From positions 1,302,001-1,366,000 of the forward strand of contig LR778114.1 of NCBI GenBank assembly GCA_902809825.1: a stretch of 64,000 nt of DNA, written 5' to 3'. The notes below the pieces were generated by a model. It made no database searches and was not told the origin of the DNA. It was given only the letters and a program-made list of their open reading frames with translations. This document shows, one piece after another, positions 27,526 to 54,633 of the stretch; the first letter of the stretch is position 1, and each line of letters begins with the position of its first letter. The stretch comes from Candidatus Hydrogenisulfobacillus filiaventi. Lineage in GTDB: Bacteria; Bacillota; Sulfobacillia; Sulfobacillales; R501. Position numbers and translations under genes: made by a program.

Positions 27526-27553
27526 TTGACATCCGGCTGAAGACCGCTAAACT
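27526..27553 (+). promoter_or_regulatory. Sigma-A type promoter of the suf operon
   Basis: TTGACA at 27526-27531, 16-nt spacer, TAAACT at 27548-27553. Transcription would begin near 27560, just before the palindrome at 27565-27581 and 60 bp upstream of sufC. Confidence 0.75.
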
Positions 27554-27564
27554 AGAGAGGAAAA

Positions 27565-27581
27565 CCGAGTAAAATACTCGG
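27565..27581. promoter_or_regulatory. Perfect palindrome, candidate operator of the suf operon
   Basis: CCGAGTA-AAA-TACTCGG, 7-bp arms and a 3-nt centre, sitting at the expected transcription start. The GAGT/ACTC core and dyad size resemble Rrf2-family (IscR-like) sites. An Rrf2 regulator with three cysteines is encoded at 54091-54555. Binding is inference. Confidence 0.65.
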
Positions 27582-27622
27582 AAATGGCGGCCGACGCCGT
27601 CGGAGGCGAGGAGTGAGCAGCG

Positions 27623-28396
27623 GTGGCATCCCCGGTATTGGAAATCCAGGACCTCCATGTAGCCATTGGCGACAAGCCCATCCTGAAGGGCGTCACCCTG
27701 ACGGTGCGCGGCGGGGAGGTGCATGCCGTGATGGGCCCCAACGGCACCGGCAAGACCTCCCTGGCCCAGACCCTCATGGGCTGGCCCTCGTATACCGTCA
27801 CCGGCGGCCGGGTACTCCTGGACGGCCAGGATCTGCTGGCCATGCGCACCGACCAGCGGGCCCGCGCGGGGCTGTTCCTGGCCATGCAATACCCCAGCGA
27901 AATTTCGGGCGTCACCACCGCCAACTTCCTGCGCACCGCCTTAAATGCCCGCCGGGGCGAGGACAACCCCATCGGCCTCAAGGAGTTCCGTGATCAGCTG
28001 GACGCGGCCATGGACCAGCTGGAAATGAACCACCAGTTCGCCAACCGGTACCTGAACGAAGGGTTCTCGGGGGGCGAGAAGAAGCGCAATGAAATCCTGC
28101 AGATGCTGATGTTGAAGCCCCGCATCGCGGTGCTGGACGAAATCGACTCCGGCCTAGACATTGACGCGGTCAAGGTGGTGGCGGCCGGGGTGCAATCCCT
28201 GGTCGGCCCGGAATTCGGCGCCCTCATCATCACCCATTACCATCGCATCCTGGACTACATCCGGCCGGATTACGTGCACATCATGATGGACGGGCGGGTG
28301 GTCATGTCGGGCGGACCGGAGCTGGCCCACGAGCTGGAGGCCAAGGGCTACGACTGGGTCCGCAGCACCGTGCTTAACGCCGACCAGGCTCATTAA
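27623..28396 (+). CDS. sufC: Fe-S cluster assembly ATPase SufC, 257 aa
   Basis: ABC-type ATPase: Walker A GPNGTGKT, signature FSGGEKKR, Walker B IAVLDEIDSGLD and the H-loop histidine in IITHYHRIL. It forms the SufBCD scaffold on which Fe-S clusters are built. The GTG start at 27623 follows GAGGAG. First gene of the suf operon. Confidence 0.97.
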   Translation: MASPVLEIQDLHVAIGDKPILKGVTLTVRGGEVHAVMGPNGTGKTSLAQTLMGWPSYTVTGGRVLLDGQDLLAMRTDQRARAGLFLAMQYPSEISGVTTANFLRTALNARRGEDNPIGLKEFRDQLDAAMDQLEMNHQFANRYLNEGFSGGEKKRNEILQMLMLKPRIAVLDEIDSGLDIDAVKVVAAGVQSLVGPEFGALIITHYHRILDYIRPDYVHIMMDGRVVMSGGPELAHELEAKGYDWVRSTVLNADQAH

Positions 28397-28416: not shown

Positions 28417-29697
28417 ATGCATGAGGGCATCGCCACCCTGGGCCCTGAAACCCTGGAAGCGGCCGTACGCAGCCGCTTTGCCGACGATCCCGACTGGCTG
28501 CGCGCACGCCGGCTGGAGCTGGCAGCGGCCGCACTGGAACGGGAGCTGCCGCAACGGCCCCATACCCCGCTGAAAAGCCGCCGGCTGGACCGCATCCCCG
28601 TCCTGGCCGCAGGGGACACCAGCCCCGCCCTGCCCGAGATCGGGGTGGAAGGGGCGGCCGGTCTGCTGGTGGTGGCCGACGGCCGGCCCCTGCGCAGCTG
28701 GCTCGACCCCGCCCTGGCCCCCCAAGGGGTGGTGTTCACCACCCTCAGCCAGGCCGCCCGCGAAGCGCCGGGCCTGGTCATGCGCTTCCTCGGCCGATCG
28801 GCGGATGATACCGCCGACCGACTGGCAGCCCTCAACGGCACCCTCTGGGACGGCGGCGCCTTCCTGTACGTTCCCCCGGGGGTGGAGATCCCCGGCCTGT
28901 TCGTGGTGTTGTACCTGACCGGGGACAGCACCCCCGGCAGCTTCCCCCGCACCCTGGCCGTGCTCGACCGCGGGGCCCGCGCGACCTTGGTGGAGCGCTT
29001 CCAGGGCGGCGGCAGCGGCCGCACCCTCTTCTCCGCCACCAGCGAGGTGTTCCTGGAGGAGGCGGCGGCGCTGACCATGGGTTCCCTCCAACAGCTGGCA
29101 GGCGGCGTGGAAGCCTTCCTGCGGCGGGCGGCCACCCTGAATGCCGACGCCACCCTCGACTGGTCGATCGGGGAATTCGGTGCCGGACTGGTGGTTACCG
29201 GGCATCAGGTGCGGCTTACCGCCCCCGGTGCCCGGGCCGCCACCACCACCGTGTTCTTCGGTTCCGGCCGTCAGCATCAGGATTACCGGGCTGAGGTCGA
29301 ACACCTGTCCCCCCACACCGCCAGCACCATGGTGGCACGGGGGGTGGTCAAGGATAAGGCCCGCACCGCCTTTTACGGCGTTTCCCACATCCATGCCGGG
29401 GCCAAGGGGGCGGATGCGCGGCAGAAGGAACAGATCCTGATGCTAAACGACGGCGCCCGCGCAGATGCGGTGCCGGCCCTGCTCATCGACGAGAACGACG
29501 TGTTCGCGGCCCATTCCGCCAGCGCCGGTCCTGTCGACCGGCAGGCCCTCTACTACCTGATGGCGCGCGGGCTGAGCGAGGAGCAGGCTGTCCGGCTGTA
29601 TGTGCACGGGTTCCTGGCCCCGGTGATCGACACCATCGGCGACCCCTGGCTGCGGGCCCGGGTGTGGGAGGAAGCGGAAGGGAAGATGCTGACGTGA
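28417..29697 (+). CDS. sufD: Fe-S cluster assembly protein SufD, 426 aa
   Basis: Beta-helix core protein paralogous to SufB; the C-terminal SAGPVDRQALYYLMARGLSE region and HSASAG motif are characteristic, and the lower similarity to SufB and position after sufC identify it as SufD. It stabilises the SufBC2D scaffold and assists iron entry. Ribosome site GGGAGGAA precedes ATG 28417. Confidence 0.95.
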   Translation: MHEGIATLGPETLEAAVRSRFADDPDWLRARRLELAAAALERELPQRPHTPLKSRRLDRIPVLAAGDTSPALPEIGVEGAAGLLVVADGRPLRSWLDPALAPQGVVFTTLSQAAREAPGLVMRFLGRSADDTADRLAALNGTLWDGGAFLYVPPGVEIPGLFVVLYLTGDSTPGSFPRTLAVLDRGARATLVERFQGGGSGRTLFSATSEVFLEEAAALTMGSLQQLAGGVEAFLRRAATLNADATLDWSIGEFGAGLVVTGHQVRLTAPGARAATTTVFFGSGRQHQDYRAEVEHLSPHTASTMVARGVVKDKARTAFYGVSHIHAGAKGADARQKEQILMLNDGARADAVPALLIDENDVFAAHSASAGPVDRQALYYLMARGLSEEQAVRLYVHGFLAPVIDTIGDPWLRARVWEEAEGKMLT

Positions 29698-30908
29698 ACC
29701 CGCTGGTGCCCCGCGAGGACTTCCCTATTCTCAGCCGCAGCGTGCATGGCCGCCGGCTGGTCTACCTGGATTCGGCCGCCACTGCCCAGAAGCCGGCCCC
29801 GGTGATCGCGGCGGTGGACCATTTCTACCGGTACACCAACGCCAACGTGCTACGCAGCGCCCACGCCCTGGCCGACGAGGCCACCGAGGCCTATGAGGCA
29901 GCCCGGGTCAAGGTAGCCCGTTTCATCGGGGCCGCCTCCCCGGCCGAGGTGGTGTTCACGCGGGGCACTACCGAATCCCTGAACGGCATCGCCCGCGGCT
30001 GGGGGGACAAGTTCGTCGGCCCCGGGGATGAGATTGTGCTCTCCCCCATGGAACATCACGCCAATCTGATCCCCTGGCAGCAGCTGGCGCGCCGCCGGGA
30101 GGCCCGCCTACGTTTCATTGAGCTGACCCCTGACGGCCGCATCACCCTGGAGGCGGCGCAGGCCGTCATCGGTCCCCGGACCCGGCTGGTGGCGCTCTCG
30201 GCGGTTTCCAACGTGCTGGGCACCATCAACCCCATCCCGGAGGTGGCCGCGCTGGCGCATCAGGTCGGTGCCGTCATGGTAGTGGACGGCGCCCAGTCGG
30301 TACCCCATGAGCCCACCGACGTGGCCGCCTTGGGAGCCGATTTCCTGGCCTTCTCCGGCCACAAGCTGGGCGGCCCTACCGGCATCGGCGTCCTCTGGGG
30401 CCGGGAGACGCTGCTGGACGCCATGGACCCCTTCCTGTTCGGGGGCGAGATGATCGCCTATGTCGACCGCGAGCATGCCACCTGGGCCGACCTGCCCCAC
30501 AAGTTCGAAGCCGGCACCCCCCATATCGCGGGGGCGGTAGGCCTGGGCGCCGCCTTGGACTACCTGCAAGCGGTCGGCATGGCCCGCGTGCGCGATCACG
30601 GGCGGGCCCTGGGGGAGGAGGCCTACCGGCGGCTGGCGGAGGCCGGGGTGCAGGTGTACGGCCCGGCGGCGCCCCGGGCCGCCCTGGTGGCCTTCAATCT
30701 GGGTCCAATCCACCCTCACGACGTGGCACAGGTGTTCGATGCCGAGGGCGTAGCCATCCGGGCCGGCCACCACTGCGCCCAGCCCCTCATGCAGTGGCTG
30801 GGAGTGGCGGCCACGGCACGGGCCAGTTTCTACATTTATAACGGCTCCGACGACATCGACGCCCTGCTGCACGCGGTTGAGGTGACAAAGAGGTACTTCC
30901 GCCGATGA
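29694..30908 (+). CDS. sufS: Type II cysteine desulfurase SufS, 404 aa
   Basis: PLP lysine K224 in SGHKLGGPTG and catalytic cysteine C361 in RAGHHCAQPL, which is the class II motif. It abstracts sulfur from cysteine as a persulfide and hands it to SufU. GTG 29694 overlaps the sufD TGA by 4 bp (GTGA), and its own stop overlaps sufU (ATGA). Confidence 0.96.
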   Translation: MNPLVPREDFPILSRSVHGRRLVYLDSAATAQKPAPVIAAVDHFYRYTNANVLRSAHALADEATEAYEAARVKVARFIGAASPAEVVFTRGTTESLNGIARGWGDKFVGPGDEIVLSPMEHHANLIPWQQLARRREARLRFIELTPDGRITLEAAQAVIGPRTRLVALSAVSNVLGTINPIPEVAALAHQVGAVMVVDGAQSVPHEPTDVAALGADFLAFSGHKLGGPTGIGVLWGRETLLDAMDPFLFGGEMIAYVDREHATWADLPHKFEAGTPHIAGAVGLGAALDYLQAVGMARVRDHGRALGEEAYRRLAEAGVQVYGPAAPRAALVAFNLGPIHPHDVAQVFDAEGVAIRAGHHCAQPLMQWLGVAATARASFYIYNGSDDIDALLHAVEVTKRYFRR

Positions 30909-31342
30909 GCCTGGACGAACTCTACCGGGAAATCATCCTGGATCACAATCAGCAGCCCCGTAACCGGGGCCGCCTGGAGCACCCCACCGCTACGGTGGGC
31001 CTGTTCAATCCGACCTGCGGCGACCAGATTCGGCTCGACCTGCTGGTGGAGGACGGCCGGGTCAAGGACATCCGGTTCGACGGACAGGGCTGCTCCATCA
31101 GCATGGCCTCCGCCTCTATGATGACGGAGGCGGTCAAGGGCAAGCCGGTTGAGGAGGCGCTAGCGCTGGCCCGCGGGTTTAAAGCCTTCCTGCGGGGGGA
31201 GCCCCCGGGGGTGGCCCTGGGGGATCTGGAGGTGCTGGGCGGGGTAACCCAGTTTCCCAGCCGGGTGAAATGTGCCACCCTGGCTCATAATGCCCTGGAG
31301 AAGGGCCTGACCGGCCAGCAGGGCGGTCTGGACGAGGAATAG
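30905..31342 (+). CDS. sufU: Sulfur transfer protein SufU, 145 aa
   Basis: IscU-like fold with zinc ligands C38, D40, C63 and C123 (NPTCGD, GQGCS, VKCATL) and the about 20-residue insertion between the second and third cysteines typical of SufU as opposed to IscU. It accepts persulfide from SufS by zinc-ligand exchange and delivers it to SufB. Confidence 0.95.
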
Positions 31343-31391
31343 GCCGCCGGAGGCAGCCCGCGACGGCGTGCGACTAAAGGAGGAACCTGCC

Positions 31392-32792
31392 ATGTCGGTC
31401 GACAATCGCGTCGTATCGGACGAGTACCGCTACGGCTTCAACGACGGCGACGTCAGCGTGCTGAAATTCAAGCGCGGCTTGTCCCGGGAAGTGGTGGAGG
31501 AGATCTCCCGCATTAAGCAGGAGCCGAAGTGGATGCTGGACTTCCGGCTACACGCGCTGGACGTCTTCCTCTCCAAGCCCATGCCGGCGTGGGGTGCCGA
31601 CCTCTCCGCCCTGGACTTCGACAACATCGTCTACTACGTGCGCCCGTCCGAACGCCAGGGCCGCACCTGGGATGAGGTGCCGCAGGCCATCAAGGACACC
31701 TTTGAGCGCCTCGGCATCCCGGAGGCGGAGCGGAAGTACCTGGCCGGGGTCTCGGCCCAGTATGAGTCGGAGGTCGTATACCACAGCATCCGCAAGGACC
31801 TGCAGGAGAAGGGCATCATCTTCTGCGACACCGACACGGCGGTCCGGGAATACCCCGAGCTGGTGCGGGAGTATTTCGGCACGGTGGTGCCGCCGGAGGA
31901 CAACAAGTTTGCCGCCCTCAACTCGGCGGTCTGGTCGGGGGGATCCTTCGTCTACATCCCCAAGGGGGCGCGGGCGGAAACCCCTTTGCAGGCCTATTTC
32001 CGCATCAACTCCCAGAACATGGGGCAGTTCGAGCGGACGCTCATCATCGCGGAGGAGGATTCCTTCGGGCACTACGTGGAGGGCTGCACCGCCCCCACCT
32101 ACAACTCGGAGTCGCTGCATTCGGCGGTGGTGGAGATTATCATTAAGGACAACGCCCGCATCCGGTACACCACGGTGCAGAACTGGGCCCCTAACGTCTA
32201 CAACCTGGTCACCAAGCGGGCGGTAGCCTACCGCAACGCCACCATGGAGTGGGTGGACGGCAATATCGGGTCCAAGGTGACCATGAAGTATCCGGCCGTG
32301 TACCTGCTGGGGGAAGGGGCCCGCGGGTCGGTGCTCTCCATTGCGGTGGGCGGCAAGGGGCAGCACCAGGATACGGGGGCCAAAATGGTGCATATCGCGC
32401 CCAACACCACCTCCACCATCGTGTCCAAGTCCATCAGCCAGCATGGGGGCAAGACCACCTACCGCGGGCTGGTGGAGTTCGGGCCCAATGCGGCCGGCGC
32501 CAAATCCTCGGTCAAGTGTGACACCCTCATCCTGGATCCGGAGTCGAGCTCGGACACCATCCCCACCAACGAGGTGGAAACCAGCCAGGGGCACATGGAA
32601 CACGAGGCCACCGTCACCAAGGTCAGCGAGGAGCAGCTCTTCTACCTGATGAGCCGCGGCCTCAGCGAAGAGGAAGCGACCCGCCTCATCGTCATGGGCT
32701 TCATCGAACCCTTCACCCGGGAGCTGCCGATGGAGTTCGCGGTGGGGATGAACCGGCTGATCAAGTTCGAGATGGAAGGGGCTATCGGCTGA
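31392..32792 (+). CDS. sufB: Fe-S cluster assembly scaffold SufB, 466 aa
   Basis: Highly conserved beta-helix protein: [13 protein letters not shown] near the N terminus, [37 protein letters not shown] and the C-terminal [15 protein letters not shown]. Cysteines in EGCTAP and VKCDTL are the candidate cluster and sulfur ligands. The strongest ribosome site in the operon (AAAGGAGGAA) precedes ATG 31392. Confidence 0.97.
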
Positions 32793-32793
32793 T

Positions 32794-33105
32794 ATGGCCT
32801 GGATACGGGTGGCAGAGGCAGCGGATGTGGAACCCGGCCGTCCGCTGCTGGTTTCCCTGGACGAGCAGGACATTGCCCTCTACCGGGTCGGCAACGAATG
32901 GTATGCGACCGATGACCTCTGTTCCCATGCCGAGGCCTCCCTGGCCGAAGGCCGGCTGGACGGCTACCGCATCACCTGTCCCCGGCACGGGGGCCAGTTC
33001 GATATCCGGACGGGGGAGGCGGTCAAGATGCCCGCCATCACCCCCATTGCCACCTTCCCGGTCCGGGAGGAAGGTGGCGTGATCTACATCGACTACGAAC
33101 CCTGA
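32794..33105 (+). CDS. Rieske-type [2Fe-2S] ferredoxin, 103 aa
   Basis: Soluble Rieske fold with cluster ligands C43/H45 (CSH) and C62/H65 (CPRH), like ferredoxin subunits of non-haem oxygenases. It starts 1 bp after the sufB stop, so it is a true operon member and probably supplies electrons for, or is an early client of, Suf assembly. Such genes at the end of suf operons are common in actinobacteria and some Firmicutes. No oxygenase is nearby. Confidence 0.9.
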   Translation: MAWIRVAEAADVEPGRPLLVSLDEQDIALYRVGNEWYATDDLCSHAEASLAEGRLDGYRITCPRHGGQFDIRTGEAVKMPAITPIATFPVREEGGVIYIDYEP

Positions 33106-53017: not shown

Positions 53018-54088
53018 TCAATCCTCCGCCTGCAGGCGGCCGCCGGCCAGGAGCCGTCCCGCGGCGTCGTACCAGACCGCCACCTGCCCCGGGGCGACTG
53101 CCCACTGCGGCCGCGCAAATTCGATCCGGGCCCGGGACGGATCAGCCGGATCCGGGATCCAAACCGCGGGCACCGGCTCCATGTTGTAGCGTACCTTCAC
53201 CCAGCCCCGGCGCGGTTCCGGAAACGGATTTCCCAAGGGGTAGTGGACCGCCTCTACGACCGCCCGGCGGCGCTCCGCCTCCCGGCGGCGGCCGATGATC
53301 ACGCGGTTGCGGGCGGCGTCCAGTCCGACCACGTACCGGGGCTCGTCCGCAGTGATCCCCAGGCCCCGCCGCTGTCCCACCGTGAAGAAGGCCACCCCGG
53401 GATGCTGCCCCACCACCCGCCCCGCCGTGTCCACCATCTCCCCCGGGCGGGCGGCATCGGGCCGGTGGCGGCGGAGATAGGCGCGATAGTCGTTGCCGGG
53501 TACAAAGCAGAGCTCCTGGCTCTCGGCCTTGTCGGCCGTCGGGAGCCCCCGCCGGCGGACGTAGTCCCGTACCGCCGGCTTGAGCCACCCGCCGAGCGGG
53601 AACCGGACATGCGCCAGGTCCTCCTGGCCCAGGGTGTAGAGCAGGTAGCTCTGGTCCTTGGCGGTGTCCCGCGCCCGGGCCAGCACCCACCGGTCGGCCC
53701 CGAAGGGCTGCCGGCGCACGTAATGACCCGTCGCCACCAAGTCTGCCCCCTGCGCCGCCGCCCATTCCCACAGGGCCCCGAATTTGATGGCCCGGTTGCA
53801 GAGGGCACAGGGATTCGGGGTACGGCCGCCCAAATAGGCGGCCTCAAAGGGTTCGATCACAGCCTCCCGGAAGCGGCGGCGGACATCCACCACCGTATGA
53901 GGAATGCCCAGGGCTTTGGCCACTCGTTTGGCATCCGCCACCGCCCCCAGGGAGCAGCAGCCGTTATCGGCCCCGGGGGGCAGCTGCAGGAGGGTCACCC
54001 CCAGCACGGTGTGGCCCTGCTCCACAAGTAAAGCGGCGGCCGCCGAGGAGTCGACGCCGCCGCTCATGCCCACCACCACCACGGCCAC
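53018..54088 (-). CDS. mnmA: tRNA-specific 2-thiouridylase MnmA, 356 aa
   Basis: PP-loop GMSGGVDSS at the N terminus; the catalytic cysteine pair in TPNPCALCN and [11 protein letters not shown]/tRNA motif ATGHYVR. It forms 2-thiouridine at U34 of Lys, Glu and Gln tRNAs using persulfide from a cysteine desulfurase. GTG 54088 has GGGAGGG upstream and lies 2 bp after the Rrf2 stop. In most Firmicutes a desulfurase gene stands between the regulator and mnmA; here it is missing. Confidence 0.96.
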
Positions 54089-54090
54089 GG

Positions 54091-54555
54091 CTACCCTCCC
54101 CCTGCCTGCACCACACGGGCCAGAAGCTTGTCCCGGACCGCCTCCTGCTGTTCCTCCACCAACTGTTGAAAGGTCATGGCGTCCATGGCGCCCAGCAGGG
54201 CGTCCTGCACCCGGCTCCAGACATCCGGGCCGATGCAGCGCCCGATCTCCGGGCAGCTGGAGGCCGCCTCGCTGGTGCAGTCGGCGATGCCGATTGGGCC
54301 CTCCAGCGCCCGCACCACGTCCCCCACGGAAATCTCCGCCGGCTGGCGGGCCAGGCGGTAGCCCCCCTGGGCCCCCCGTACCCCGACCACCAGGCCGGCG
54401 CGTTTGAGCGGCACCATCAGCTGCTCCAGATACTGCTCCGAGATGGCCTGGCGACGGGCGATGGCGGACACCGTCAGGGCGCCGTTGCCGTAATTCCGGG
54501 CCAGTTCGTAAACGGCCTTGACCCCATACCGTCCCTTGCTGGATACCCGCAACAC
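54091..54555 (-). CDS. Rrf2-family transcription regulator, IscR-like with three cysteines, 154 aa
   Basis: Winged helix: [31 protein letters not shown] and the wing [16 protein letters not shown]. Unlike CymR, which has no cluster, it has C93-x7-C101-x5-C107 ([19 protein letters not shown]), so an Fe-S cluster is plausible. Coupled to mnmA. It could be the sensor for the suf palindrome at 27565-27581. GTG 54555 is preferred (GGAGG 10 nt upstream); ATG 54588 would add 11 residues. Confidence 0.88.
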
Positions 54556-54633
54556 CCGGACCCCACCTCCCGTAGACAGCACGCCCATTTCACAATACCG
54601 CTTCCCGGGGGGGCTGGCAATCGCGAGCCGTTC

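Follow-up and report, generated by a model that had tools for sequence, protein, structure and literature searches.

The window, by which we mean the whole stretch of 64,000 nucleotides analysed, carries a sufCDSUB operon on its plus strand and, further on, a gene for an Rrf2 family regulator on its minus strand. The features on which the argument depends are as follows.

27526 to 27531, plus strand: -35 hexamer TTGACA of the suf promoter (promoter scan; TTGAC[A/T] with a 16-nt spacer in all 39 order genomes)
27548 to 27553, plus strand: -10 hexamer TAAACT (promoter scan; TACACT, TAGACT or TAAACT in relatives)
27561 to 27585, no strand: 25-bp dyad AAAACCGAGTAAAATACTCGGAAAT, candidate Rrf2/IscR-type operator (conservation and E. 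coli consensus)
27565 to 27581, no strand: 7-3-7 core palindrome CCGAGTA-AAA-TACTCGG (original prediction and pattern search)
27623 to 28396, plus strand: sufC, GTG start, first gene of sufCDSUB (TIGR01978, 349 bits, cut-off 212.8)
28417 to 29697, plus strand: sufD (TIGR01981, 219 bits, just below the cut-off of 222; operon position)
29664 to 30908, plus strand: sufS (TIGR01979, 558 bits)
30905 to 31342, plus strand: sufU (TIGR01994, 158.8 bits)
31368 to 32792, plus strand: sufB (TIGR01980, 733 bits)
53018 to 54088, minus strand: mnmA, directly 3' of RrfA (same gene order in 17 of 17 order loci)
54091 to 54555, minus strand: rrf2 gene 'RrfA', IscR-like regulator, likeliest reader of the dyad (PF02082; GTG start inferred from relatives)
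54592 to 54620, minus strand: possible weak promoter of RrfA, TTGCCA-17-TATTGT, without a dyad (by eye)

The original prediction placed a sigma-A promoter and a perfect palindrome at the suf transcription start. Both are present: TTGACA-16-TAAACT is the sole promoter-like match between 26800 and 28400, and CCGAGTA-AAA-TACTCGG is exact at 27565-27581. If transcription begins 7 nt past the -10 hexamer, the start would lie near 27560, so that the 17-mer would run from about +5 and the 25-bp dyad from about +1. The predicted overlap with the start is thus good for the full dyad and weaker for the palindrome. Directly 3' of sufB, at 32794-33105, is a gene for a small Rieske-type [2Fe-2S] protein (PF00355, 80.7 bits), possibly the final one of the operon.

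An exact pattern search found the 17-mer only once in the 2.57-Mb genome (one contig), with no copies at one or two mismatches elsewhere in the genome. Copies with three mismatches numbered 27 more in the genome, compared with 80 for a backward-read control, and their count within the window was at the level given by shuffles. Because that count is no higher than in shuffles, and because the GC-rich window contains 23 perfect 7-3-7 palindromes, the palindrome by itself is weak evidence, and in these comparisons it is conservation that argues for a function. The exact 17-mer was rejected as the conserved unit, since among 299 genomes of the phylum it is present in this genome alone. The alignments point instead to a relaxed 25-bp dyad as the conserved unit, of which the palindrome is the core.

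To follow the dyad across the order, 42 genomes were searched, including this one, and 39 gave a sufC match; the three without a match (G036, G039, G040) are 59-71% complete, and the survey leaves out the second sufC paralogues (55% identical) of G026, G030 and G032. A dyad lies 5' of sufC in all 39, a count scored with a consensus drawn by eye from the same sequences. In every case it begins 7-11 nt past the -10 of a TTGAC[A/T]-16-TA[C/G/A]ACT promoter, and it stands 12-43 nt before the start of the sufC match. The mean majority-base fraction is 0.82 within the dyad and 0.37-0.53 in the flanks, in an alignment whose rows are anchored on the dyad and which therefore favours it. A typical dyad of the order is AATACTGAGTAnnnTACTCAGAAAT; the forms in family f2 are closer to that of E. 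coli, for example AAACCCGACTAAAGTACTAGGGTAT. The left half CCGAGTA occurs in the window genome alone among the 39. Separately, three order genomes have a good copy of the dyad within the sufU coding frame (L155, L156 and L162, at about 1501-1525), and G019, G023 and G034 have matches at the same distance from sufC as these internal copies. The sufU copies may follow from conservation of the peptide ENPTK.VGLLNPT, or may represent an intragenic operator.

The consensus of the E. coli IscR type-1 operator, given in PMC6599224 as ATASYYGACTRWWWYAGTCRRSTAT, is a published sequence that owes nothing to those of the order, and so provides a test independent of the by-eye consensus. The window dyad matches it at 19 of 25 positions, with none of 200 shuffles as good, and the features that mark a type-1 operator, a 25-bp dyad near the promoter of Fe-S assembly genes, are found together here. 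The dyad is the top-scoring position for the E. coli consensus in 37 of the 39 order genomes, the exceptions being L017 and L032, in which another position scored higher; the best positions in the order score 17-21 of 25. At most one of 200 shuffles equalled the dyad score in 16 of the 39 genomes, the window's included, and more than one did so in the remaining 23. The same consensus was applied upstream of sufC in seven genomes of the class outside the order, giving sites equalled by 2/200 shuffles in G044 and 8/200 in G048, and no convincing site 5' of sufC in the other five.

Similar sites occur elsewhere in the class, where they precede genes of related function. Since one profile model (R1) had been trained partly on class sites, which makes its class matches circular, we relied on a weight matrix and a second profile model (R2), both trained solely on 30 distinct suf sites of the order. 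Of 11 relatives from the class but not the order, eight have a matrix site in the promoter of their own IscR-like rrf2 (scores 7.5 to 20.9, each with 0/200 shuffles as good) and three have none; this count excludes L067 and L069, for which the offset or frame was bad. In L067 a dyad-like stretch was seen by eye about 145 nt upstream of rrf2, and L160, from the same genome as L069, has an R1 match just 5' of rrf2. A scan of 131 class genomes with R2 matched 12 of the 112 non-order genomes at E<=0.2, and 10 of these matches precede rrf2 (six: G362, G367, G369, G376, G377 and G395, directly 5' of the gene), nifS/iscS (two: G060 and G371), sufC (one: G391, gene identified by translation) or cysE (one). 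The rrf2 gene of G362 runs off the end of its contig and was identified by eye from its translated first codons, and the matches in G057 and G358 are without explanation. In G314 the dyad (L258, 1501-1525) stands 5' of cysE, the gene for serine acetyltransferase, a hint that cysteine supply in that organism could also be governed by an IscR-like switch.

Among Bacillales-type loci, 71 of 72 lack a site scoring above 10 upstream of sufC, and only two of the 72 score above zero (Vulcanibacillus modesticaldus at 25.1 and one weak site at 6.2); all eight order loci in the same comparison, which overlap with the 39, score at least 20.6. The V. modesticaldus site (L174), AAAATTGACTAATTTAGTCAGGATT, lies 122 nt upstream of sufC and comes close to the type-1 dyad of E. 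coli. Another arrangement was seen in G042 (L055), a relative within the class that has the dyad at its IscR-like gene: a Fur-box-like sequence, TGAGAATGATTCTCA, follows the -10 of its sufC promoter, roughly 50-30 nt ahead of the sufC match. Judging from this sequence, suf in G042 may be under Fur instead.

Within the order a second target is suggested. The scan of relatives with R1 gave 17 second dyads outside the suf operon, 16 of which (in 16 genomes) precede a sufT-like gene; this identity rests on a family search for one of the 16 and for the copy in this genome, the rest having been recognised by eye. The one searched gave 90.5 bits for PF01883 and fell under the TIGR02945 equivalog cut-off. 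In many of these sites the dyad starts inside a TATAAT. The sufT-like gene of this genome (G000:C1:579054-579341) is 73% identical, and about 235 nt 5' of its start a degenerate dyad, ATAACAGAGTGCGATAGTCGGAATT, at G000:C1:579583-579607, abuts TTGCCC-17-TACAAT. This dyad is one of the 27 three-mismatch copies of the 17-mer. A whole-genome scan of this genome with a profile model at E<=10 reported the suf site alone and missed the sufT-like site, which is therefore the weaker claim, resting on the pattern search and the matrix. The expectation of further sites before Fe-S or cysteine genes is borne out well in the relatives and weakly in this genome, by one degenerate site at the sufT-like gene. 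The 17th second site is a near-perfect symmetric dyad, AAATCCTAGTAACCTACTAGGATTT (L150, 1501-1525), lying in an ftsW-like coding frame recognised by eye, and is probably due to chance.

The likeliest reader of the dyad is the product of the rrf2 gene at 54.1-54.6 kb. The genome encodes two Rrf2 proteins above the Pfam cut-off, RrfA and RrfB. RrfA is a clear member of the superfamily (PF02082, 136.4 bits against a cut-off of 30; TIGR00738, 121 bits against 73.3), as had been proposed, and falls below the equivalog thresholds for both IscR (TIGR02010, 114.1 against 207.55 bits) and CymR (NF047409, 125.9 against 195 bits). The cysteines predicted at positions 93, 101 and 107 hold given a GTG start with its first base at 54555 on the minus strand, which the N-termini of relatives support. 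Their spacing, C-x7-C-x5-C, recurs in 35 of 37 order RrfA rows, the other two having (9,5) and (6,5); the cysteines of E. coli IscR, C92/C98/C104, are spaced 5,5. His107, the fourth cluster ligand of E. coli IscR according to PMC6599224, has a proline (CIGP) at its place in RrfA, three residues past the last cysteine. Because of this proline and of the scores below the IscR and CymR cut-offs, we do not file RrfA as IscR proper.

A phylogenetic tree places the RrfA of the order (37 rows) as sister to the IscRs of the class with support of 94/78, and splits this joint group from RrfB at 100/100. The class IscRs that are sister to RrfA carry the dyad in their own promoters. The matrix search found no dyad before RrfA, in agreement with the original observation that the palindrome is missing there, and the same is true of the RrfA promoter in 37 of 37 order genomes (17/17 and 20/20), so that the usual argument from autoregulation is missing in this organism. 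RrfA thus departs from an autoregulated first gene of an isc operon on both counts, its neighbor being mnmA in 17/17 loci and its promoter lacking the dyad in 37/37. RrfA nevertheless probably works like IscR.

Considering together the sequence, conservation and position of the dyad, its co-occurrence with iscR, iscS and suf genes, and the kinship of RrfA, we think it probable that the dyad, lying over the predicted sufCDSUB start, belongs with the type-1 operators of IscR and is read by RrfA as a cluster-sensing repressor whose autoregulation has been lost. The proposal that an Rrf2 protein uses this site is well supported in these comparisons by its presence upstream of sufC in 39/39 genomes, by its likeness to type-1 sites, and by the sites before iscR-like, nifS/iscS, sufC and cysE genes; the sister relationship of RrfA to class IscRs with a dyad in their own promoters supports it further. 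We infer binding by RrfA, the sign of regulation and its dependence on the cluster. An RrfA dimer would bind the dyad with one wing-helix domain on each half site A-W-W-W-C-Y-G/T-A-S-T-A. When clusters are plentiful, RrfA holding a cluster on its three cysteines would cover the suf start and block RNA polymerase, and once iron shortage or oxidation has removed the clusters, RrfA would release the dyad and allow suf to be expressed. The same regulator may act on the second, degenerate site at the -10 of the sufT-like gene, and apparently does not repress its own gene, unlike E. coli IscR and the class relatives. The position of the dyad, over the predicted suf start and abutting the sufT-like -10, is well matched to repression. 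The type-1 sites of E. coli are bound by IscR only in its holo form, as described in PMC5411485 and PMC8593673, and every promoter with a type-1 site is repressed, as described in PMC8593673; it is by analogy with these sites that repression by RrfA with its cluster, and derepression of suf on cluster loss, are proposed.

It is conceivable, but rather unlikely, that the dyad serves RrfB or a protein of another family. RrfB, at about 14.5 kb of G000:C1, is conserved in much of the order, has a cysteine-rich C-terminal part, and shares the YLEQL recognition-helix motif with RrfA; because this motif is common to both, the helix alone cannot choose between them. Seven order genomes (G001, G003, G005, G007, G009, G011 and G020), however, have the dyad with no RrfB listed, and all seven have RrfA. 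A branch of length 2 also separates RrfB from the dyad-bearing class IscRs, and the promoters of RrfB and other non-RrfA Rrf2 genes gave 0/21 positive-scoring sites (one scored -3.4, with 0/200 shuffles as good, 288 nt upstream). As an observation in its own right, RrfB (L003, 1494-1950; L089-L105) is an order-wide second Rrf2 whose cysteines lie close together. Many relatives have it directly 3' of a gene with a cysteine synthase-like end (by eye), and this genome has it 3' of a transporter-like frame; it may be a cysteine regulator.

A second alternative is that the palindrome acts as a hairpin in the 5'-leader RNA, as an attenuator or mRNA stabiliser, or as an antisense terminator (reverse strand CCGAGTATTTTACTCGGTTTTCC). 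The window RNA does fold into a 7-bp stem of -8.9 kcal/mol, with 7/200 shuffles as good, a scan marks a minus-strand terminator-like site at the palindrome, and the double-change cells exceed those of all 500 shuffles. The last excess, however, is also predicted for a two-fold protein site, and the pairing is not kept across relatives as it would be in an intrinsic terminator or attenuator: 72.5% of cells are paired over the 39 sequences, two core pairs are unpaired in 15 of the 39, and none of four relatives' leader stretches folded into the same perfect stem. The two arms change almost independently of each other (7.57 of 11 positions symmetric, compared with 7.23 when re-dealt; 101/2000 as high), and the motif recurs before iscR-like, iscS and cysE genes. 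Conservation as a terminator or attenuator, the outcome that would have spoken against an operator, was thus not found, and a hairpin or terminator function appears unlikely from the sequences; we give it little credence. Just as improbable, in our judgment, is that RrfA is an activator or an apo-form binder in the manner of type-2 sites, with cluster loss directly switching suf on. E. coli apo-IscR does activate suf via a type-2 site, as described in PMC5411485, but a dyad over or just past the predicted start, and abutting the sufT-like -10, is poorly placed for an activator, and it resembles the type-1 sites, whose E. coli promoters are all repressed according to PMC8593673. That the palindrome is a chance occurrence without function, for which the number of perfect 7-3-7 palindromes in the 64 kb might speak, is scarcely credible given its order-wide conservation in sequence and position, its rarity upstream of sufC in Bacillales-type loci, and the class sites before rrf2 genes and among the R2 matches.

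If RrfA is indeed the repressor that reads the dyad, the Sulfobacillus order would possess an open-loop, IscR-like switch, below the equivalog thresholds, without the histidine ligand, with control of its own gene lost, with roughly two operons kept under its control (suf and the sufT-like gene), and with GAGTA in place of GACTA in its half site. Sister orders keep the operator on iscR, iscS, suf or cysE, and because of this we suggest that, within the class, the switch was transferred from isc control to suf control; for this wider proposal we see the chances as evenly balanced. One lineage of Bacillota would then offer a candidate operator, a candidate regulator and a two-target regulon, together with a natural series tracing the passage of an IscR circuit from isc to suf and the loss of its feedback. 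For an acid-loving group of Bacillota, the dyad points to a way in which the essential pathway of Fe-S cluster assembly may be controlled.

IscR type-1 operators, and control of suf by Rrf2 proteins such as RisR (PMC9973013), are already known, and a review describes the control of suf in Gram-positive bacteria as unknown. Among the open-licence papers searched for IscR or Rrf2 in Sulfobacillus and for suf operators in Bacillota, none was listed on this operator or lineage, nor on the loss of autoregulation or the change of half site. With the E. coli type-1 operator the dyad shares its 25-bp length, its half-site plan and its place before Fe-S assembly genes. It differs in that most half sites of the order are CTGAGTA or CCGAGTA rather than YYGACTA, and in that the target is suf and not isc, without autoregulation; RrfA also lies outside an isc operon and has no equivalent of His107. 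RisR of Myxococcus xanthus is similar in being an Rrf2 repressor of suf and isc that acts via an imperfect palindrome, but its site, T(t/g)GAC-N7-GTCC(t/a), has a half site other than that of the dyad (PMC9973013).

Among the solved structures, the IscR of Thermincola potens (PDB 4cic), a Bacillota IscR, is the best match of RrfA, at 122 bits, and the two proteins have identical YLEQL and VRGAQGGY stretches. The paper on this IscR is reportedly that of Santos et al. 2014. The entry 4cic is named as the T. potens regulator in PMC4618611. Among the next best structures is CymR of Bacillus and Staphylococcus (2y75, 3t8r), and the CymR rows among the matches listed are without the three cysteines of RrfA. 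The cymR gene of B. subtilis lies near mnmA, as RrfA does here.
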